From the NCBI RefSeq assembly GCF_004121075.1, contig NZ_RHLN01000015.1, positions 1 to 64,000 on the forward strand: a DNA stretch of 64,000 bases, read 5' to 3'. The position numbers and the translations under genes were made by a program. Positions 38,616 through 54,791 of the stretch are shown one piece after another; position 1 is the first letter of the stretch, and each line of letters starts with the position of its first letter. The stretch is from Lutibacter sp. HS1-25 (GTDB taxonomy: Bacteria > Bacteroidota > Bacteroidia > Flavobacteriales > Flavobacteriaceae). Under the pieces are notes generated by a model. It ran no database searches. It saw nothing but the letters and a program-made list of their open reading frames with translations, and was not told the origin of the DNA.

Positions 38616-38711
38616 TTGGGCATTCCCTGCGGGTCGGGCTTTCCGCTATATCTTTTTTGCAATTTCACTGCGTTACATTGCAAAAAAGGATGCCGCTGCA
38701 ATCCCTAATGC
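38616..38711. repeat. Dispersed GC-richer intergenic repeat of a type seen in Flavobacteriaceae
   Basis: A stretch clearly richer in G and C than its surroundings, between converging genes. It begins near GGGCATTCCCTGCGGGTCGG and ends near GGATGCCGCTGCAATCCC. In the centre an 11-bp inverted repeat (TTTTTTGCAAT at 38653-38663 and ATTGCAAAAAA at 38677-38687) forms a hairpin, and the outer parts also pair partially. I recognise this motif pattern as recurring in flavobacterial intergenic regions. Whether other copies exist in this genome cannot be seen here. Confidence 0.6.
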
Positions 38712-38725
38712 AAAAGCAAATCAAC

Positions 38726-45068: not shown

Positions 45069-45785
45069 TTACATTTTTAAATAAAAATCTTTTACTAAAT
45101 TGATGTATTCTGAAGTGTATTGATGGCGTTCAATTTCAATGACCAATTCATTAATTATTGTTGTGTTTTCAGTGAACGAAAATTGTAAAAGACTTCTTTT
45201 TATTGGTGAATTTTCAGTTCCTTTTACACGTGTAATTCTGTTTGGAAATAACTTTTGCTGTTTGGCCAGTTCAATAAAATACGCTTCTTCTGAAAACGGA
45301 ATTATAAAAGCACAACTACCTATTTCAGACAATAATTTTGAAGTTCCTTCTAACAATTCATAGTATGTTAAACTTTCAGTATGACGCGCCATAGCTCTTT
45401 CTTCTGAAATTTCTTTGTATGTTGAAGTGTAAAATGGCGGATTGGAAATAATCAAATCGTACTCATCATCAATTTCATCAACAAATTCTTGTAAAGAAGC
45501 GTGGTAACAAAACAAACGATCACCCCAACTACTTCTTTCAAAATTATCAACGGTTTGTTCGTAAGCATCATCATTTAATTCAATAGCATCAATCACTTCA
45601 GCATTGCTTTTTTGAGCAACCATCAATGCAATCAAACCTGTTCCTGCTCCAATATCTAAAACACTAAAAACTTCCGAATTTACTTGAACCCAAGCACCCA
45701 ATAAAACGCCATCGGTTCCAACTTTCATAGCTGTTTTATCTTGTTGAATGCTAAATTCTTTAAATTGAAAAGGTTTGTTAGACAT
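45069..45785 (-). CDS. trmN6: tRNA1(Val) adenine(37)-N6-methyltransferase
   Basis: A class I SAM methyltransferase of 238 residues that methylates A37 of tRNA1(Val). Motif I is VLDIGAGTGLIALMVAQ and the N6-adenine catalytic motif is ISNPPFYTS. The N-terminal FKEFSIQQDKTAMKVGTDGVLLGAW is typical. The first 8 bases overlap the end of the upstream SDR, so it is likely transcribed with the accessory genes to its right. That is an odd partnership for a tRNA enzyme. Confidence 0.92.
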   Translation of the reverse strand: MSNKPFQFKEFSIQQDKTAMKVGTDGVLLGAWVQVNSEVFSVLDIGAGTGLIALMVAQKSNAEVIDAIELNDDAYEQTVDNFERSSWGDRLFCYHASLQEFVDEIDDEYDLIISNPPFYTSTYKEISEERAMARHTESLTYYELLEGTSKLLSEIGSCAFIIPFSEEAYFIELAKQQKLFPNRITRVKGTENSPIKRSLLQFSFTENTTIINELVIEIERHQYTSEYINLVKDFYLKM

Positions 45786-46758
45786 GTGTTTTTAATAATT
45801 TTTCAGTTAAACTCCATAAACGTTCGCCATTTTCTGGATTTGAAGCCAATTCATCAACAGGTTTTCTGCTCATTAAAAACAAATAATCAGTTGGCTTTCC
45901 TTCAATAGCTTTTGAAGCTGTCAAATATACAACAGGTGCTGCAGCTTTTTCGGGAGAATTAAAAAAAATTTTAAAAACCAATTTCATAACAGGCTGTACT
46001 AATTTTGGAGCTTCACGCGCAATATTTGAGTTTACAGGGCCTGGACATAAGGCAAAAACAGAATAATTGGTTTTATCAACATTCAATCTTCTTGATAATT
46101 CTTGAGCAAAAGTGGTCATTAATAATTTGTAATAACCATATCTTTCAACTGTTTTAGCCATTTTATGTTCTTGAAATTTACCAAAAGTATCCCATTCAAA
46201 AGCTGTTGGATTTCTATGACTTTCAGAAGAAACAAAAACAATTCTTGGAATGGTATTTCCTTCCGTATTAAAACAATTTTCTTTCAATAAACCATTCACC
46301 AAAACAAATTTTGATAAATAATTTACGGTAAACATTTCATCAAAACCAGCAGAAGTTTTTCGGGCTTCACTTACAACCACAGCAGCATTACAAATTAATA
46401 TATCAATTTTTTTAACCTTTAATTTTACTTCTGTAATTAGTTTTTTTATAGCGTTAAAATCTGATAAATCTACATATAACATTGTTACTTTATTGCTTCC
46501 AGAAGCTTTTTTAACTTCTTCTCCTTTTTCAGGAATACCGCTTCTTACTGCCATTATTACTTCAGCACCCAATGCTGCTAATTGTTTAGCAGTTGCCAAT
46601 CCCAAACCAGAGCTAGAACCTGTAATTAGTACTTTTTTACCTTGTAAATGGTCGTTTTTTGTAAGTGAGCCAACGCTTTCTCTTTTTTTAAATAAATCTA
46701 AAATACCACTTATGGTTGCCTGTAGCGGACTGTTATATTTTTTGGTTGTCTCACTCAT
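45778..46758 (-). CDS. Short-chain dehydrogenase/reductase, long N-terminal type
   Basis: A 326-residue SDR. A 40-residue extension (containing SGILDLFKKRESVGSLT) precedes the cofactor motif TGSSSGLGLATAKQLA. Next come CNAAV (the NAG site), a Ser in FVSSESHR and the catalytic pair in YGYYKLLMTTF (YxxxK). The motif and the arginine in AVRSG suggest NADP. It is closely similar to the SDR at 51852-52877, including the extension, so the two are paralogues. It is the last accessory gene before trmN6, starting on the base where the sulfotransferase gene ends. Confidence 0.87.
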   Translation of the reverse strand: MSETTKKYNSPLQATISGILDLFKKRESVGSLTKNDHLQGKKVLITGSSSGLGLATAKQLAALGAEVIMAVRSGIPEKGEEVKKASGSNKVTMLYVDLSDFNAIKKLITEVKLKVKKIDILICNAAVVVSEARKTSAGFDEMFTVNYLSKFVLVNGLLKENCFNTEGNTIPRIVFVSSESHRNPTAFEWDTFGKFQEHKMAKTVERYGYYKLLMTTFAQELSRRLNVDKTNYSVFALCPGPVNSNIAREAPKLVQPVMKLVFKIFFNSPEKAAAPVVYLTASKAIEGKPTDYLFLMSRKPVDELASNPENGERLWSLTEKLLKTHV

Positions 46759-48008
46759 TAGATGTCTAATTTTTGTTGAAATTGTTCGTATTCTTTTGTG
46801 AATTTTTGAATATAAGCCTTGTCAACACCAAAGTCTGCTAAGTTGTATTGATGAACACCGTATTTCCCTTTCGGGTTTTCGTTGTTAGATTTTTGAAAAA
46901 TAGCTTTTAATTCGGGTGAAATAATTTCGCCTCTATCGGCATAAATTTGTTCAATAGTAGCTAAAGAATCTTTTATCAATGCTTTGTATGAAATGTCTGT
47001 AAATAAGATATTCGGATTATTTTTAGAACGATATTCCAAGGCCTTTTCTAGCATAAATCCATTTTTACGAATCCAATGTTTTGCTACATTTTTTTGGGTA
47101 ACTTCTTTGCTGAACAAAATTCGAGCATATGAAACCATACTTAAAAAAGATGGAATGCATTCTTGTACGTCTCTGTGTGTCCAAATAAATTGCACATCTC
47201 CAAAATATTTTTCAGCCAATTGTAAAAACTCCAAATGATGCGGTGTTTTTAAAACCCATCGTTTTGCAGGTCGCTGCCACTGTAATAATTTTAACAACTT
47301 CACCATATACTCATAGGCAGGTGATTGGTCTGTTTTTTCTAGCCAAGCAGCATAGGTTGGTACATTCATAGTTGCTTCTGTAGTAGTGCTTAAAAATGAA
47401 ACATCTAACAACAACACATCTTCTTCAGGTGCTTCAGATTCTACAGGATGAATGGCAAAAAAACCAGGCGACATATATTTTAAGGCTTCTACGCTTGTTT
47501 TTGCAATTTTTATGCGCTCTTTTCCTGTTTTTGTATCTTCTTTTATGGGTGCAGGATTTAAAGCTTCCCAACTTAAAATAGCTCGGTTATTAGGATCAGC
47601 AGCTAACAATCTTTGCAATTTTGTGGTTCCAGTGCGTTGTAAACCTACAATTACCATACACGGATACAATTCTTGCGCTAAAATTTCAGGGTGTTTTTTA
47701 AAATAAGCTTCGGCTCTTAAGCGCACCGACAATAAATTGATAATGCGTTTGCGTGTAATAAATTGGCCAATTGGATGTAATTGCGCTTCTTCATTAATAG
47801 ATTTCAACATGACCTTTAATGGTTCTTCCCAAAAATCACCAAAATCAGATAATCCCGTAGCTTTTTGAGCTGCTTTTTTTAAGCTCTCAATTTCTAAAGT
47901 AGATTTTGTTCCTAACGGATAGGTCGATTTCCAAATACTGTTGATGGCCGTAAACCAACCAGGCTGCTGTTTGTATTGGTTTGAAGTATATGTGTTTTCT
48001 GCCTTCAT
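46758..48008 (-). CDS. Sulfotransferase-fold (Sulfotransfer_3-like) protein
   Basis: A 416-residue protein with the PAPS 5'-phosphosulfate-binding loop MVIVGLQRTGTTKLQRLLA, then WEALNPAP, the 3'-phosphate-binding region PAKRWVLKTPHHLEFL and FIWTHRDVQECIPSFLSM. The fold indicates transfer of sulfate from PAPS to a hydroxyl, but many bacterial members are unproven and some lack this activity. The ATG at 48008 lies two bases past the stop of the DUF1214 gene. An earlier in-frame ATG at 48029 overlaps that gene. Confidence 0.82.
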   Translation of the reverse strand: MKAENTYTSNQYKQQPGWFTAINSIWKSTYPLGTKSTLEIESLKKAAQKATGLSDFGDFWEEPLKVMLKSINEEAQLHPIGQFITRKRIINLLSVRLRAEAYFKKHPEILAQELYPCMVIVGLQRTGTTKLQRLLAADPNNRAILSWEALNPAPIKEDTKTGKERIKIAKTSVEALKYMSPGFFAIHPVESEAPEEDVLLLDVSFLSTTTEATMNVPTYAAWLEKTDQSPAYEYMVKLLKLLQWQRPAKRWVLKTPHHLEFLQLAEKYFGDVQFIWTHRDVQECIPSFLSMVSYARILFSKEVTQKNVAKHWIRKNGFMLEKALEYRSKNNPNILFTDISYKALIKDSLATIEQIYADRGEIISPELKAIFQKSNNENPKGKYGVHQYNLADFGVDKAYIQKFTKEYEQFQQKLDI

Positions 48009-48010
48009 AA

Positions 48011-49192
48011 TTATTTTAAGCTTTCCCATTTTACAACCTCACAATTGGGTTGAATTTCAGTTCCTACTTTATCCAATCTGTACCAACGCCAACACATGGT
48101 TCCTTCTAAATGATTGCAAGTATTTAGCCAATTTTTTAGACCAGGATTTTTATGTGCAACAATAATTTTTAGATTTCCATCGGGTTCATATTTTGCAGTG
48201 CCTTTGCTAATGCAAATAGTGTGATAACGGTAATCCAAAGATTCCATCCAATAATTGTTTAACTGAAAATTCCAGCTATCACAAACAGGTGGTTGAACTG
48301 TAATAACCAAAGCTTCGTCTTCTTTTAAATTCCAGTAACTATGGTAATAAATAATGTTTGCATCACCACCAGCAGCATTTGAAACTTTTGGGTCGAATTG
48401 TGGTAACTGATTGGGGTGCTTTTTAAAACCATTTACCCAACGTGTAAACAAAATTGGAGCGCCAGCCACAAACATAGCAGCCATTTTTAAACCTTCGTCT
48501 ATCATTTTTGGAGTGATGGCATCAGGTGATTTTCTTCCGTCCAGATTTTCAATTTTTATTTCAGCAGGAACTTCTTCAAAACGATTTAAAAAAGTTTGAC
48601 GAACCATTGCCAAGCCAGTTTCATTTTCAATTTTTAGCCAGTTTTTTCCTTGTTTTTCTTTGCTTAAAATAATCTCAAAACTACCATCTTCTTCCAATAC
48701 CAAATCTTTTCCTTCCAAAGCGCCACAAGGCGATAAACCTCCTGTAGATCCATAATTTCCATTCTGCGTAAAAAAACCAATATAATGTACTGAATTTTTT
48801 TTTCCAGTGATTTTATATTCAAAATTGCCACTAATTTGTGCGTTGAAATAATAATTGTCTGGATTATCGGCTCCCATTTTTACGGTTTCGTGTACCATTC
48901 TTTTAAAAATTGGAAATGATGGGTCTGCATATTCTACAAAAGCTTCTAATGAAACTCGGGTCAATCGGGTTAAATAGCGAATACCTTCAGCTTGATTAAA
49001 TGCATCTTGCGGAGTGCCTGCAGCTTTTAAATTGGTTCCTGCCAATTTAATTTGGTCGCAAAAATCTTCCCAAGATTTTCCAGAAACAATTCGCTGCTTA
49101 TAGATATCATCTTCAGTTTTTCCAGAAATGGTTAGTTTTATTTTTCTGAAAAAATTCGAAACATTTAAAAAGACAAAGAGTAATTTTCGCAT
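48011..49192 (-). CDS. DUF1214-domain protein
   Basis: A 393-residue protein. Residues about 265-385 match DUF1214: VTVQPPVCDSWNFQLNNYW, then YHTICISKGTAKYEPDGN and HKNPGLKNWLNTCNHLEGTMCWRWY. The N-terminal half carries DUF1254/1214-like beta-rich sequence. No signal peptide or known catalytic motif is visible. It is the first gene of the leftward unit with the sulfotransferase and SDR. In Proteobacteria and Actinobacteria, DUF1214 genes are often next to sulfotransferases and SDRs, but no function is established. Confidence 0.75.
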   Translation of the reverse strand: MRKLLFVFLNVSNFFRKIKLTISGKTEDDIYKQRIVSGKSWEDFCDQIKLAGTNLKAAGTPQDAFNQAEGIRYLTRLTRVSLEAFVEYADPSFPIFKRMVHETVKMGADNPDNYYFNAQISGNFEYKITGKKNSVHYIGFFTQNGNYGSTGGLSPCGALEGKDLVLEEDGSFEIILSKEKQGKNWLKIENETGLAMVRQTFLNRFEEVPAEIKIENLDGRKSPDAITPKMIDEGLKMAAMFVAGAPILFTRWVNGFKKHPNQLPQFDPKVSNAAGGDANIIYYHSYWNLKEDEALVITVQPPVCDSWNFQLNNYWMESLDYRYHTICISKGTAKYEPDGNLKIIVAHKNPGLKNWLNTCNHLEGTMCWRWYRLDKVGTEIQPNCEVVKWESLK

Positions 49193-49248
49193 TGGAATAA
49201 AAATGATGTATTTTTAGTTTCATTAAAAGTAAGTAAAATTTGCAAATT

Positions 49249-50067
49249 ATGAGTGATAGCACTTTTAAAAACAACTATGGTTATTGGGTAATTGTGGTAG
49301 GGTCTGCTGAAGGCTTAGGTGAGGCATATACCATTGCTTTGGCTAAAAGAAAAATGAATCTGATTTTGGTAGACAATCAGTTGAATTTACTTGAAGCAAT
49401 TTCAAAAAAAGTTGAAACAGATTTTGGTGTTAAAACTGTAAAACTTTACTTGGATTTAAAAGATGTAAATGCAGTTGAAAAAATGATGTTGGAAATTGAA
49501 AAAGTAGATTGTCGTTTGTTAATTTACAATGCAGCGTACAGTTTGGTGAAACCTTTTTTAAATCATAATGAAGTTGAATTAGACAATTATATTGATGTAA
49601 ATACCCGAACACAACTTAAATTAGCACATCAATTTTCAAAATTATTAATTTGTAAAAAACAAGCTGGGGGTATTTTATTAATGTCGTCTTTGGCAGGTTT
49701 GATTGGAATGCAATTGGTTTCAACCTATGCAGCAACAAAGGCTTTTACTTGGAATTTAGCTGAAGCTTTGCATTACGAATTGAAACCAAAAAATATTAAA
49801 GTTATGGCTTGTATTGCTGGTGCTACAGCAACTCCGGCTTATTTAAAAACAAAGCCTACTTATGGATTTATAAAGCCGCAAATTATGAGCCCAATTGATG
49901 TGGCCGAAAGTGCCTTGCAAAATTTAGGTAAAAAAGCCTTATTAATTCCTGGATTTTCAAACCGATTCAATTACTTTATTTTAACCCGTTTATTGCCTCG
50001 AAAAATGGCTGCTTCAGTAGCCAATAAAACAATGCTTACTATGTTTCAAGAGCAAAGTAACAGTTAA
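49249..50067 (+). CDS. Short-chain dehydrogenase/reductase
   Basis: A 272-residue classical SDR, similar to 3-oxoacyl or 17-beta-hydroxysteroid type enzymes. The cofactor motif is VVGSAEGLGEAYTIALAKR, then YNAAYS, the catalytic Ser in LLMSSLAGLIG and YAATKAF (YxxxK). The ATG at 49249 is preferred over an upstream TTG. It is divergent from the DUF1214 gene across a 56-base gap that must contain both promoters, so the two units are probably co-regulated. The gene converges on the EthD gene, overlapping by 4 bases. Confidence 0.85.
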   Translation: MSDSTFKNNYGYWVIVVGSAEGLGEAYTIALAKRKMNLILVDNQLNLLEAISKKVETDFGVKTVKLYLDLKDVNAVEKMMLEIEKVDCRLLIYNAAYSLVKPFLNHNEVELDNYIDVNTRTQLKLAHQFSKLLICKKQAGGILLMSSLAGLIGMQLVSTYAATKAFTWNLAEALHYELKPKNIKVMACIAGATATPAYLKTKPTYGFIKPQIMSPIDVAESALQNLGKKALLIPGFSNRFNYFILTRLLPRKMAASVANKTMLTMFQEQSNS

Positions 50068-50735
50068 CTTTTAATAATATATTCAGCAGTTAAATAAGTT
50101 TCAATGGTGCCATAATCTATAAATGATTTGGTGTCGGTATATACCAAAATCATATTTGGAATCATTTTTAAAATACCTCCAAAAAACTTGGTTGGATTTA
50201 GCAATTCAGTTTTTGTTTTGCAATGTTCTTCAACAATACCATCCCAATTTTCTTTGTTTTTTGCCCAAGGTTCTTCAACAACATTTCTATTGTAATGCGT
50301 TAGAGGATGAATTTTTAATGAAAGCGGTGTGTGGCTATTGTGCCAACGATTTATAAAAGTGTTGTAATCAATAGATTTTTTTTGGTTGAATAAAGTTAGC
50401 AGGCAAACTCCAGGTGTAGTTTCACCATCAGCCCAATTTTTATCATATGCTACAGGCAAAGCTTCAGTAACTTCAAAAAAACCGGCAAAACCAAGTTCGT
50501 TTTTAAGTTCATTAAATTGGTTATTTTCATTCGATTTTATTGAAATTGAAGCAATTTTATCTTTTTTAAATGGGATGATTGAAATTGAAGGTGGTGCTTC
50601 TTTTGTTAAAACAGCTTTTATTAAAATTGATGGGTATTTTTTGGCCAAACTATTTGTCAATTTTAGTATTCGGTTGTTAAAACCTTTGTAGCTTTCTGTT
50701 TTATCACCTCTTATTAAGCATATTGTTTTTTTCAT
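50064..50735 (-). CDS. EthD-domain (dimeric alpha/beta barrel) protein
   Basis: A 223-residue protein with two ferredoxin-like repeats. The second repeat has the EthD-type FINRWHNSHTPLSLKIHPLTHYNRNVV region (WHNSHTPL is diagnostic). EthD-like proteins occur with oxidative degradation of ethers, polyketides and aromatic compounds, usually as small accessory or decarboxylase-like enzymes. The ATG at 50735 is used. It is the only leftward gene between two rightward SDRs and is divergent from the 3-beta-HSD-like gene. Confidence 0.75.
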   Translation of the reverse strand: MKKTICLIRGDKTESYKGFNNRILKLTNSLAKKYPSILIKAVLTKEAPPSISIIPFKKDKIASISIKSNENNQFNELKNELGFAGFFEVTEALPVAYDKNWADGETTPGVCLLTLFNQKKSIDYNTFINRWHNSHTPLSLKIHPLTHYNRNVVEEPWAKNKENWDGIVEEHCKTKTELLNPTKFFGGILKMIPNMILVYTDTKSFIDYGTIETYLTAEYIIKS

Positions 50736-50810
50736 TTTCAAAACCAATTATAATCACTATTTTAGTACAGCTGATTTAGAGCAAGATACTAAAAAAAGAT
50801 TCATTTTAAT

Positions 50811-51851
50811 ATGGCAAAAAAACAACCTCATATATTTTTAACCGGAGGATCGGGGTTTATAGGAACTAGAATTGTTGAAGAATTATTAGATAAATCTTCA
50901 CCTTTAAAACCATCAAAAATTACCATTTTTGATATTCAGCCATATCAAGGAATTAAAAATGAATTGATTGAGTTTATTCAGGGTTCTGTTTGTGATTTTG
51001 AAGCATTAGAAAAAGCAAGTAAAAATGCCGATGTTGTTATTCACACCGCAGCAATTATAGATTGGGGTACAAAATCTGAACAAGAAGTTTTAAATATCAA
51101 TGTTAATGGTACTAAAAACATGATTAGAGCCTGTAAGTTAAATAATATCAATTATTTGGTTTACACAAGTTCTTTAGATGCAGTTTTTACAGGAACGCCT
51201 TTGGTTGATATTGATGAAAATCAACCGTATCCAAAAACACATCATACGGTTTATTGTGAGTCTAAAAAATTGGGAGAATTGGCTGTTTTAGAAGCGCATT
51301 CAACAACTTTAAAAACCTGTATTTTAAGACCTTCGGATGTTTATGGCGAGGCTGATCCTTATCATATAGACTCGTTAATTGATATGGCTAAAAGCGGGTT
51401 TTATGTGCGTTTGGGTAATGGAAAATCCAATTGTCAGCACGTTTATGTTGGTAATATGGCTTATGCACATGTGTTGGCGGCCAATGCATTGTGGACAAAT
51501 AACAGTAAGGTAGAAAAAGAAATCTACTTTATTACAGACGGAAAAGGTTCTAATTTTTTTAAATTTTTTGATAAAGTTGTGGAAGGTGCAGGTTACAAGA
51601 TTTTTCCAAAAAACGCTTGGATTCCTAAAACATTGGCTTATTCAATTGGAAGTCTTTCTGAAGCCACTGCCATTTTAATGCGACCAATTAAAAAATACAA
51701 CCCTAAATTTAGTCGGTTTGCAGTAATTTATACTTGTACAGATTTTACGTTTTCATCTAAAAAAGCTTCCGAAGATTTCAACTTTCATCCAAAATATTCA
51801 ACTGAAGAAGCACTTCAAAAAACAATTAAATTTTATTCAAAAAACAAATAA
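50811..51851 (+). CDS. 3-beta-hydroxysteroid dehydrogenase/isomerase-like extended SDR
   Basis: A 346-residue extended SDR. The NAD motif is IFLTGGSGFIGTRIVEELL. Further marks are VVIHTAAIIDWG, the Ser in YTSSLDAVF, YCESKKLGE (YxxxK) and RPSDVYGEADPYHID. The family oxidises 3-beta-hydroxysteroids and related sterols, and includes OleD-like and NSDHL-like enzymes, so a hydroxylated polycyclic or long-chain substrate is likely. Its stop is directly followed by the ATG of the next SDR. Confidence 0.85.
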   Translation: MAKKQPHIFLTGGSGFIGTRIVEELLDKSSPLKPSKITIFDIQPYQGIKNELIEFIQGSVCDFEALEKASKNADVVIHTAAIIDWGTKSEQEVLNINVNGTKNMIRACKLNNINYLVYTSSLDAVFTGTPLVDIDENQPYPKTHHTVYCESKKLGELAVLEAHSTTLKTCILRPSDVYGEADPYHIDSLIDMAKSGFYVRLGNGKSNCQHVYVGNMAYAHVLAANALWTNNSKVEKEIYFITDGKGSNFFKFFDKVVEGAGYKIFPKNAWIPKTLAYSIGSLSEATAILMRPIKKYNPKFSRFAVIYTCTDFTFSSKKASEDFNFHPKYSTEEALQKTIKFYSKNK

Positions 51852-52877
51852 ATGGCTCACGGACGTTTTGATAACCCAGTAGTTGCCAGTATGACTGGTA
51901 TTTTAGATATTTTTAGAAAGCAAAAACTATCAGAAAGATTGACAGATAATGATAGGATAGATGGCAAAACTTGTTTGGTTACTGGTGCAAATACAGGTTT
52001 GGGTTTTGCTATTGCAGTAGATTTAGCTAAAAGAGGTGCTAAGGTAATTATGGCTTGTAGAAGTCAAATTCCTGAAGCTGGCGAGAAAGTCAAAAAAATA
52101 TCGGGTTCAGATAATGTAGTGATGAAATATCTTGATTTAAGTAAAATTGATACAATTCATAGTTTTGTAGCCGATTTAAAAAATGAAAACATTACTTTAG
52201 ATTTTACGGTTTTAAATGCAGGAGTGGCTTTGCCTAAAGCAAAAAAAACAGCTTCGGGTTTGGATGAAATATTTTTGGTAAATTATTTATCTAATTTCAT
52301 TTTATTGAATTTATTATTGAACAATGGAATTATTCCAAATTCAACGATTTCAAAAAATAAGAAGTTAGAAGACAAGCCATCAAGAGTTATTTTTATTTCT
52401 TCAGATTCTCATCAAAAATCTTCTTTTATTGACCATGATGAATTTGGTCGTTATTTTGAGTACGGACTTAAAAAAGGGATGAATAATTACAGTTATTACA
52501 AACTGGTTTTAAATACTTTGGCTGTTGAAATTTCAAAAAGAATGAATAAGGATACAGCAAATCCAGATGTTTCATTTAATGTTATTTGCCCTGGACCAGT
52601 AAATACCAATATTGTTAGAGATGCTCCTTGGTTGATTAGAATGCTATTAAAAGGTATTTTTTCAATCTTTTTTCAATCTCCTGAAAAAGCAGCAAAAGCA
52701 GTTTCGTACATTACTATTTCTAATGATTTTGAAGGCAAAACGGCTGCTTATATGCATATGTTTAATCCAAAAGAAATGGATTATAAAATTTATATTCCTG
52801 AAGAAGGAATTAAATTATGGGAGCATTCTGTTGAAGTTTGGAAACGTGTTGATGAAAATGCCGTCTTAAATATTTAA
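51852..52877 (+). CDS. Short-chain dehydrogenase/reductase, paralogue of the SDR at 45.8 kb
   Basis: A 341-residue SDR with the same 40-residue N-terminal extension (TGILDIFRKQKLSERLT). Then follow TGANTGLGFAIAVDLAKRG, LNAGV, a Ser in FISSDSHQK and YSYYKLVLNTL (YxxxK). The C-terminal region shares SPEKAAKAVSYIT with its paralogue's SPEKAAAPVVYLT. It is fused in transcription to the preceding 3-beta-HSD-like gene (zero-base spacing). These two SDRs bound the accessory island on both sides. Confidence 0.87.
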   Translation: MAHGRFDNPVVASMTGILDIFRKQKLSERLTDNDRIDGKTCLVTGANTGLGFAIAVDLAKRGAKVIMACRSQIPEAGEKVKKISGSDNVVMKYLDLSKIDTIHSFVADLKNENITLDFTVLNAGVALPKAKKTASGLDEIFLVNYLSNFILLNLLLNNGIIPNSTISKNKKLEDKPSRVIFISSDSHQKSSFIDHDEFGRYFEYGLKKGMNNYSYYKLVLNTLAVEISKRMNKDTANPDVSFNVICPGPVNTNIVRDAPWLIRMLLKGIFSIFFQSPEKAAKAVSYITISNDFEGKTAAYMHMFNPKEMDYKIYIPEEGIKLWEHSVEVWKRVDENAVLNI

Positions 52878-52956
52878 ACAAAATTTTATAGAAATCAATC
52901 AATTTAAAATTGTAAATTATTGATATGTAGGTTTTTGAAAATTAATTTTAAAGATC

Positions 52957-52971
52957 CGACACAACATGTCG
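52957..52971. promoter_or_regulatory. Small perfect inverted repeat upstream of the SYLF gene
   Basis: CGACA-CAACA-TGTCG, in an otherwise AT-rich spacer 62 bases before the ATG. It could be an operator or a short stem. No regulator is assigned. Confidence 0.3.
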
Positions 52972-53032
52972 TATACTTAATGATCTAAACCCCATAATTT
53001 TACTTTATGTTAAAAACTAATAAAATAAAATT

Positions 53033-53614
53033 ATGAAGACAATTACAAGAAACCTATTTACGCTTATTTTAATAGGTTTTATATCAACATCAATTATTGC
53101 ACAAGAAAAAGAAAAAAAGAATAAGAAAAGTCCTGCTGAAGAAAGAGCTGAAATTGATAAAATGACCAGTAAAGCACTTGCTGAATTATACAAAGTTCAA
53201 CCGCAGGCCAGAAATGAAATTGCAAACTCAAAAGGCTATGCAGTTTTTGGTAACTTTGGTATGAACTTGTTTTTACTATCTACTGCAAATGGCGCTGGGA
53301 AAGCAGTTAGTGGAGGTAAAGCAACATATATGAAAATGTATTCAGCAGGTGTTGGAGTTGGTATAGGTGTTAAAAAATTCAATGGTATTTTTATATTTAA
53401 AACCACAAAAGCATATCAGAATTTTATAGAAGAAGGATGGCAAGGTGGCGGGCAAGCAGATGCTGCTGCAAAAGACAATAAACAAGGAGGGGCAGTTGCT
53501 GGTGCAATTAGTATTTCGCCTGATATTACGTTTTACCAAGTCACCAATAAAGGGTTAGCGGCTCAAGCTACAATCCAAGGAACTAAATATTGGAAAGACA
53601 AAGATTTGAACTAA
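53033..53614 (+). CDS. Exported SYLF-domain (Ysc84-type) lipid-binding protein
   Basis: A 193-residue protein with a signal peptide (about 1-24, cleavage after IIA). A lysine- and glutamate-rich linker and a SYLF-like domain follow: AVFGNFGMNLFLLSTANGAGKAV, then YSAGVGVGIGVKKFNGIFIF and a final glycine-rich ISISPDITFYQVTNKG. SYLF proteins bind phospholipids. In Bacteroidetes they are periplasmic or outer-membrane associated, with unknown roles. It is monocistronic with a strong terminator. Confidence 0.75.
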   Translation: MKTITRNLFTLILIGFISTSIIAQEKEKKNKKSPAEERAEIDKMTSKALAELYKVQPQARNEIANSKGYAVFGNFGMNLFLLSTANGAGKAVSGGKATYMKMYSAGVGVGIGVKKFNGIFIFKTTKAYQNFIEEGWQGGGQADAAAKDNKQGGAVAGAISISPDITFYQVTNKGLAAQATIQGTKYWKDKDLN

Positions 53615-53637
53615 AAATAGTTTTAATTGATTTATTA

Positions 53638-53683
53638 TAGATTCTTAAATATAAATTTTTATATTTAAGAATCTATTTTTTTT
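53638..53683 (+). terminator. Terminator after the SYLF gene
   Basis: A perfect 15-bp stem (TAGATTCTTAAATAT/ATATTTAAGAATCTA), 8-base loop, then nine T. Very strong by form. Confidence 0.92.
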
Positions 53684-53747
53684 TAAATAGTTTGATTATG
53701 AAGTATATTTAAGATTAAATTAGTGCTTTAAAATAAACATCTTTTTT

Positions 53748-54791
53748 TTGAAAAATAAATATGTCATAATTATTATTCTTTTTGTAGTGACGCTAATTTC
53801 TATGTCAAAAATTAGTGCGCAAAAAACTGATACCATTTATCATATAAACGGAAACATTTTAACGGGAGACTTTAAAAGTTTAGTCTATGGTGTTGTAATT
53901 TGGAAAATGGAGGGTATGGGAACTATAAATTTAGAAGAGGTTAAAATTAATACCATTATTTCAACAAAAGAATTTGAAATAAAACTGAAAAATGACCATA
54001 TTTATTTTGGTTCTTTTGGTGCATCTAAAACCAAAAGAACAACTTATATTATAGATGGCGACAAAAAGACACTTGTAAAGATTGATGATATTATTGAAGC
54101 GTATCCTATTAAAAACAATTTTTGGAGTAAAACAAGTGGTAATTTTAGTTTGGGTTTTAACTATTCAAAAGGGAGTGGTGTAGCAACTTTGGCATTTTCG
54201 GGTAATCTTAATTATAGAAAAGAAAAAAGTTTTTATAGTTTTAATTGGGATGACAATAATACTTATCAGGGTGATACCTTAAATTCAAGCTACACAAATT
54301 TTAATCTTACTTGGCAACGTTTATTAAATAATGGATTTTCTACGCAGGCAATTATTGGTGGAGGTCAAAATACCGAATTAGGAACTAAATTTCGCTGGGA
54401 GCTCGATTTGATGGGTGTTAAAGATATTTCTTATAATAGTTGGAACCGGCTATATGCTGGTACTGGATTAAGTATTACCAGGGAAAAATCTTATGGAAAT
54501 GATGGTACACAAGACGATATTGCCGGAATATTTCAGTTGGTTTGGAAAGTGTATAAATTTACCAGTCCAAAAATATGGGTAGACACAAGTATAACATACT
54601 TACCTTATTTTACTGATGGAGGCAGGTATAGAGCTTCTTTTAATTTAAATCCGAAAGTGAGTGTTTTTAGTGATAATTTTAAAGTTGGATTTAATTTTTA
54701 TTTCAATTACGATAGTGACCCACCTTCAATTGAGGCTTTCTCTACAAATGATTACGGCTTAAATTTACAATTGACTTATTATTTGCATTAG
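53748..54791 (+). CDS. DUF481-like outer membrane protein
   Basis: A 347-residue exported protein. The signal peptide is MKNKYVIIIILFVVTLISMS, ending before SAQ, and the start is TTG at 53748. The next in-frame ATG would cut the signal peptide in half. The N-terminal part (about 28-120) has short beta repeats (HINGNILTGDF, LKNDHIYFGSF). Residues about 125-347 are an alternating-polarity, aromatic-rich beta barrel ending in LTYYLH, typical of DUF481. A porin-like or scaffold role in the outer membrane is expected; the substrate is unknown. Confidence 0.78.
   Translation: MKNKYVIIIILFVVTLISMSKISAQKTDTIYHINGNILTGDFKSLVYGVVIWKMEGMGTINLEEVKINTIISTKEFEIKLKNDHIYFGSFGASKTKRTTYIIDGDKKTLVKIDDIIEAYPIKNNFWSKTSGNFSLGFNYSKGSGVATLAFSGNLNYRKEKSFYSFNWDDNNTYQGDTLNSSYTNFNLTWQRLLNNGFSTQAIIGGGQNTELGTKFRWELDLMGVKDISYNSWNRLYAGTGLSITREKSYGNDGTQDDIAGIFQLVWKVYKFTSPKIWVDTSITYLPYFTDGGRYRASFNLNPKVSVFSDNFKVGFNFYFNYDSDPPSIEAFSTNDYGLNLQLTYYLH

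Follow-up and report, generated by a model that had tools for sequence, protein, structure and literature searches.

Sulfation of cholesterol that depends on 3'-phosphoadenosine 5'-phosphosulfate (PAPS) is described for Bt_0416, a sulfotransferase (SULT) of Bacteroides thetaiotaomicron, in the available part of the source (PMC12667688). In the sulfotransferase domains of OLS and CurM, a hydroxyl is sulfonated with PAPS and the sulfate then leaves, according to the accessible text (PMC3903477), while in anaerobic sterol degradation, phosphorylation of 25-hydroxysteroids drives an ATP-dependent dehydration (PMC8449060, partial text). Finally, Rv3529c, Rv3530c, and Rv3531c are listed in a paper on cholesterol catabolic genes (PMC6429209, partial text). 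The subject here is an island of seven genes in the bacterium Lutibacter sp. HS1-25 (GCF_004121075.1), in which a sulfotransferase gene adjoins a gene of the DUF1214 family. All coordinates refer to the window, i.e., the whole stretch of 64,000 nucleotides that was analyzed (NZ_RHLN01000015.1, positions 1 to 64,000).

The island (45778-52877) further encodes three classical short-chain dehydrogenases/reductases (SDR_A, SDR_B, and SDR_C), an extended SDR resembling 3-beta-hydroxysteroid dehydrogenases (3-beta-HSD-like), and an EthD-like protein. An earlier note on this DNA had proposed that the seven genes act together in one pathway on a hydrophobic hydroxylated molecule. The near-constant unit is in fact DUF1214 plus sulfotransferase, with an SDR as frequent third member and the EthD-like/3-beta-HSD-like pair as a rarer second layer. 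Judging by the protein families and gene order, the island is probably a PAPS-dependent sulfation module for a hydrophobic alcohol.

Recurrence and distribution of the gene set

Genome contigs were scanned for relatives of the DUF1214 protein, and the best 80 of 233 encoding stretches were examined, these loci being picked through DUF1214 itself. The sulfotransferase gene lies directly downstream of DUF1214 in 78 of the 80, and in 73/73 of those with room for the pair (at least 1.4 kb). An SDR gene, with SDR_A or its paralogue SDR_C as best match, comes third, after the sulfotransferase, in 58 of the 61 loci with room for the trio (at least 3.6 kb); in the other three (L053, L077, and L082), nothing behind the sulfotransferase matches an SDR. 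The outer genes are found less often: SDR_B is divergent upstream of DUF1214 at 38 of 74 loci with room, the EthD-like gene occurs at 16 of 80, and the 3-beta-HSD-like gene at 13 of 80, with the EthD-like gene present every time. These last two are divergent neighbors in all 12 loci from which the gap was extracted. A single locus (L017) holds all seven genes, and five hold six (L010, L013, L020, L021, and L061); SDR_C is an additional gene alongside SDR_A in L017 and L061. The neighborhood search suggested in the earlier note thus brought out a recurring set, but the single seven-step pathway does not survive it, as the core alone is near constant.

The closest relatives among the best 80 are those of Bizionia arctica (88% DUF1214 identity) and Formosa maritima (86%). 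In both, the island sits elsewhere in the genome than in Lutibacter; in Bizionia arctica it adjoins methylmalonyl-CoA mutase genes, and the Formosa maritima locus has a similar layout of open reading frames (ORFs). On a Croceicoccus plasmid, DUF1214 and sulfotransferase genes are also adjacent. A five-gene version, with another SDR gene and an SRPBCC gene behind the core, is seen in L078, L079, L081, L083-L086, L088, L091, and L093 (Acidobacteriota-type and some Bacteroidota). The contig of L036 (compare L035) is labelled as an Alphaproteobacteria metagenome-assembled genome (MAG), yet its island gene order is nearly that of a Bacteroidales MAG, and this contig is probably misbinned.

The DUF1214 gene turns up in few genomes: 1 of 38 for the genus, 1 of 149 for a family sample, and 5 of 395 for a Bacteroidota sample (each count includes the window's own genome). 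Because of this rarity at all three levels, the island is accessory: either gained or seldom kept. The EthD-like gene is restricted, among the 395, to the window's own genome. The Bacteroidota sample was not picked for the module, and in it the sulfotransferase is found in six genomes at E ≤ 1e-50, a cut set after seeing the match list; DUF1214 is found in five, all of them shared (Fisher p 8e-11). DUF1214-sulfotransferase co-occurrence is, therefore, beyond chance. For G349, which is among these five, the sulfotransferase gene is on a different contig from DUF1214, close to the contig end, and this split of the pair may be an assembly break.

Protein families, PAPS supply, and substrate clues

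The sulfotransferase matches Sulfotransfer_3 (PF13469) with 109.9 bits, above the cut-off of 27. Its GLQRTGTT loop (G129 to T136), along with H285, R286, and S294, is at least 95% conserved among 80 sequences, and six positions (G129, R132, G134, H285, R286, and S294) do not vary at all across nine sequences whose identity to the window's protein drops as low as 24%. The loop is taken here to be the 5'-phosphosulfate loop, and H285, R286, and S294 presumably constitute the 3'-phosphate motif. The closest solved chains are 2zq5_A and 2z6v_A, both of which we take to be mycobacterial.

For the DUF1214 protein, the whole sequence passes the Pfam cut-off (PF06742, 38.3 bits vs. 25), while the six-frame search falls below it (21.7 bits). 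A solved relative from Burkholderia cenocepacia (6ans) covers residues 24-393, and the AlphaFold2 model has a predicted local distance difference test score of 88, with residues 102-108 under 50. The protein is full length with many invariant residues.

All three classical SDRs match Pfam adh_short, and SDR_C groups with SDR_A in protein clustering. The earlier reading that active-site motifs are intact in every SDR is borne out by conservation for SDR_A, SDR_B, and the 3-beta-HSD-like protein, whose catalytic residues (Tyr-x3-Lys and Ser) fall within columns at least 95% conserved; for SDR_C, it was judged by reading its own sequence alone. The 3-beta-HSD-like protein, whose type the earlier note linked to hydroxysteroids, matches Pfam 3Beta_HSD (210.7 bits), but the top NCBIfam models are those of 2-alkyl-3-oxoalkanoate reductase (OleD), ahead of the listed steroid model. 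OleD itself was rejected as a name, since the equivalog cut-off of NF042422 and NF042423 was missed (154.5 and 187.2 bits vs. 580), as was the sterol demethylase SdmB (NF052578, 49.8 bits vs. 600). The match to the EthD domain (PF07110) falls short of the cut-off (15.4 bits vs. 22), so the protein is named EthD-like only and is a weak pointer to the oxidative degradation with which EthD had been associated. Among three relatives scanned, two pass, with 22.5 and 25.2 bits (the latter in L067), and one fails with 16.0.

The window's genome carries two full-length adenosine 5'-phosphosulfate (APS) kinases on other contigs (G000:C156:22082 and G000:C14:36421), and the host's PAPS capacity was judged from APS kinase alone. 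No PAPS-synthesis gene lies beside the island sulfotransferase, according to Pfam searches of ten proteins (45069-54791). The surroundings of the module were searched in 92 loci with a few CysC, CysN, CysD, and CysQ queries (E ≤ 1e-10), and genes for making PAPS or recycling 3'-phosphoadenosine 5'-phosphate were found in five, all of them distant versions labelled as five orders. In L076, an APS kinase (adenylyl-sulfate kinase by NCBIfam) is followed in one direction by DUF1214, sulfotransferase, SDR, and SRPBCC genes. L089 has an APS-kinase-like ORF upstream, together with a TetR-type gene recognized by sequence reading. A Tsukamurella plasmid carries cysD and cysNC, then a regulator gene, then DUF1214-SDR-sulfotransferase, and a Paraburkholderia plasmid has the order DUF1214-sulfotransferase-VOC-CysQ-CysD-CysNC. 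On Novosphingobium pNL2, CysQ is about 4.5 kb away from DUF1214; the CysQ matches fall below the NCBIfam equivalog cut-off. These PAPS genes near distant versions back the earlier suggestion that a hydroxyl is sulfated.

As to the substrate, 17 of 92 loci have a Polyketide_cyc2 (SRPBCC)-like gene no more than 6 kb from DUF1214 (the Pfam scan covered one of these genes), and neighbors of this lipid-binding type would fit a hydrophobic ligand. No triterpene cyclase (squalene-hopene or oxidosqualene type, PF13249, E ≤ 1e-10) is present in the window's genome, and 4 of the 51 genomes searched, own included, have one. A self-made hopanoid or sterol is, therefore, unlikely, with a sterol from outside still among the candidates.

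Layout of the island in Lutibacter

The seven ORFs were confirmed as open at the positions given before, and the Pfam names agree as well, except for EthD:

45069-45785, minus strand: methyltransferase gene (left flank; Pfam; trmN6 of the earlier note)
45778-46758, minus strand: SDR_A, 326 residues, classical SDR, in third place in the core operon (Pfam adh_short)
46758-48029, minus strand: sulfotransferase, 423 residues, Sulfotransfer_3, core gene (Pfam, 109.9 bits)
48011-49192, minus strand: DUF1214 protein, 393 residues, core gene heading the operon (Pfam, 38.3 bits)
49193-49248: first divergent gap, 56 bases, between the DUF1214 operon and SDR_B (ORF layout)
49249-50067, plus strand: SDR_B, 272 residues, classical SDR, divergent to the core operon (Pfam adh_short)
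50064-50735, minus strand: EthD-like protein, 223 residues (Pfam, 15.4 bits, cut-off 22)
50736-50810: second divergent gap, 75 bases, between the EthD-like and 3-beta-HSD-like genes (ORF layout)
50811-51851, plus strand: 3-beta-HSD-like extended SDR, 346 residues (Pfam 3Beta_HSD, 210.7 bits)
51852-52877, plus strand: SDR_C, 341 residues, paralogue of SDR_A (Pfam adh_short)
53033-53614, plus strand: SYLF/Ysc84 gene (right flank; named as neighbor)

The DUF1214 and sulfotransferase ORFs overlap by 19 bases, the sulfotransferase and SDR_A ORFs have one base in common, and the EthD-like gene is convergent with SDR_B, with a 4-base overlap. The 56-base divergent gap is real, but the earlier note erred in having it serve both arms: the EthD-like gene is on the minus strand and shares the 75-base divergent gap with the 3-beta-HSD-like gene, and the layout, therefore, predicts four transcription units with two divergent gaps. 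TAnnTTTG is the Bacteroidota -7 element. Of 35 related DUF1214/SDR_B gaps (e.g., L030 and L054), 23 have an exact match oriented to DUF1214 (shuffled mean 1.9), and 1 has one oriented to SDR_B (shuffled 1.0). The window's own 56-base gap has no exact TAnnTTTG match.

In base composition, the island does not stand out (guanine-cytosine fraction of 0.29-0.33 in 2-kb bins vs. 0.27-0.36 window-wide). For the SYLF/Ysc84 neighbor, a search of 20 other relatives gave nothing at E ≤ 1e-15, so this gene is accessory too. A Flavo-1 RNA (RF01705) at 38628-38716 on the minus strand (60.5 bits) is the sole Rfam match in the window at the gathering score. As for anti-phage defense, PADLOC models matched 0 families among all seven proteins at E ≤ 1e-5.

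Competing readings and comparison with known systems

In the proposed module, the sulfotransferase would transfer a sulfonyl group from PAPS to a hydroxyl on a small hydrophobic molecule, and SDR_A (here also SDR_B, SDR_C, and the 3-beta-HSD-like protein) would interconvert keto and hydroxy groups, presenting the right alcohol. DUF1214, as the usual partner, may work on this molecule as well, immediately ahead of sulfation or following it, and the EthD-like/3-beta-HSD-like pair could form a further substrate-preparing layer in a subset of Bacteroidota. The sulfotransferase activity, the hydrophobic nature of the substrate, and the order of the steps are what we infer; the core order, the co-occurrence in 395 genomes, the PAPS genes near distant loci, the conserved PAPS-loop and 3'-phosphate residues, the two host APS kinases, and the recurrent Polyketide_cyc2-like neighbors argue for the module. 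Several observations weigh against it. At E ≤ 1e-15, the sulfotransferase is found in 8 of the 395 genomes, three of which are devoid of DUF1214 (G252, G357, and G420), G252 even at E ≤ 1e-50. The adjacency of the pair is looser outside Bacteroidota: of three sphingomonad plasmid loci, L007 has the two genes adjacent and L098 has them about 4 kb apart, while in L008 nothing up to 12 kb from DUF1214 is annotated as a sulfotransferase. In a Mycolicibacterium plasmid locus, found via the sulfotransferase, sulfotransferase and SDR genes stand beside a protein with no DUF1214 similarity. Moreover, 87 of the 92 loci, including all those labelled Bacteroidota, match no CysC, CysN, CysD, or CysQ query, many of these loci being short. 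The higher frequency of APS kinase (E ≤ 1e-20) in module genomes, at 42 of 50 vs. 48 of 148 phylum genomes (Fisher p 2e-10), speaks for the module, but the comparison mixes taxa and lineages that are not independent, the 50 were hand-chosen from the 80 (Acidobacteriota and Pseudomonadota loci L071-L089 left out), and the control, scored on up to 23 candidates per genome, was hand-counted at E ≤ 1e-20, its tally being 73 of 148 at E ≤ 1e-3. Eight of the 50 module genomes, many of them incomplete MAGs, show no APS kinase match.

The sulfation module can be read in two versions, with the sulfate staying or leaving, and each has a precedent. If it stays, a sulfated lipid would be made, or a toxic or foreign hydrophobic alcohol would be excreted as its sulfate, DUF1214 binding, carrying, or acting on the molecule before sulfation. 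This plain conjugation is a serious, if tentative, candidate: it has the precedent of cholesterol sulfation by the Bacteroides thetaiotaomicron SULT (PMC12667688, available part), Polyketide_cyc2-type genes recur near the module, and the patchy distribution suits an accessory trait. It leaves unexplained, however, why a highly conserved protein of 390 residues is the usual partner, and no transporter was recognized among the recurrent neighbor clusters scanned (ten of eighteen). If the sulfate leaves, the sulfotransferase would activate an unreactive alcohol and DUF1214 would eliminate the sulfate, PAPS paying for a dehydration to an alkene, with the SDRs working on the keto or alkene product. 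Such a use of sulfate seems rather unlikely, although a full-length usual partner with many invariant residues suits an enzyme acting on the sulfotransferase product, and some distant versions sit among catabolic genes, where plain conjugation is less sensible. No elimination chemistry is known to us for DUF1214, nor was a lyase fold or motif recognized in it, its standout fold matches being structural-genomics proteins with no assigned function. The OLS/CurM domain, which sulfonates a beta-hydroxyl before sulfate is lost in the thioesterase step (PMC3903477, accessible text), and the 25-hydroxysteroid kinase, which serves an ATP-dependent dehydration (PMC8449060, partial text), do lend it a model. 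The broader proposal that DUF1214 is a sulfate-ester processing enzyme, performing with the sulfotransferase a PAPS-driven, oxygen-independent conversion of alcohol to alkene in Bacteroidota, Acidobacteriota, Pseudomonadota, and Actinomycetota, is slightly more doubtful still.

Outside the sulfation reading, the sulfotransferase-fold protein might not be a PAPS enzyme at all, and the neighborhood might be a set of oxidoreductase genes for sterol or terpenoid catabolism. Distant relatives do occur in sphingomonad catabolic clusters, one with an annotated steroid Delta-isomerase and a FadD3-type ligase, and the closest solved chains, assumed above to be mycobacterial, point the same way. So does the listing of Rv3529c, Rv3530c, and Rv3531c among cholesterol catabolic genes (PMC6429209, partial text). 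The presence of APS kinase, CysD/N, or CysQ genes close to the module at five loci, together with the conserved PAPS-loop residues, makes this improbable. Chance neighbors with no common pathway are already disfavored by the locus counts and the 395-genome co-occurrence: the outer genes (SDR_B, EthD-like, 3-beta-HSD-like, and SDR_C) do vary by locus and SDR genes are common, but one locus has all seven genes, five have six, and the core order is near constant, so that very little credence is left for this explanation.

Compared with known systems, the sulfation module has its chemistry in common with described sulfotransferase pathways, while neither its partner family nor the module itself is described, as far as searches show. 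A full-text search of a literature library found no paper pairing DUF1214 with a sulfotransferase, and one containing DUF1214. The DUF1214 fold has solved structures, namely 6ans (Burkholderia cenocepacia), VPA0106 (3u07), and VPA0735 (2p3y and 3vb9), whose titles name no function, and as far as literature searches show, the family has no described function. Linking this DUF1214 branch with a PAPS-dependent sulfotransferase would give it a specific role that can be tested and a way toward its substrate.

The mycobacterial-type sulfotransferases are related to the window's protein through 2zq5 and 2z6v, its closest solved relatives. The Tsukamurella plasmid order DUF1214-SDR-sulfotransferase matches, as we take it, Rv3531c-Rv3530c-Rv3529c, Rv3529c being presumably a sulfotransferase, but the Tsukamurella SDR is only remotely SDR_A-like (27% over 88 residues). 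PAPS-synthesis genes presumably lie beside the sulfotransferase in the Bt_0416 sulfonation cluster, whereas none lies beside the window's island. Like the enzyme proposed for the island, Bt_0416 belongs to a member of Bacteroidota and uses PAPS to sulfate a hydrophobic alcohol (PMC12667688, available part); a DUF1214 or SDR partner of Bt_0416 goes unmentioned in that part of the source. The OLS/CurM sulfotransferase is a polyketide synthase domain with a thioesterase, whereas the window's protein is stand-alone, with DUF1214 and SDRs. Were the sulfate a leaving group, the module would be the sulfate counterpart of the phosphorylation-elimination in anaerobic sterol side-chain oxidation and could offer bacteria a general oxygen-free route to strip unreactive hydroxyls.

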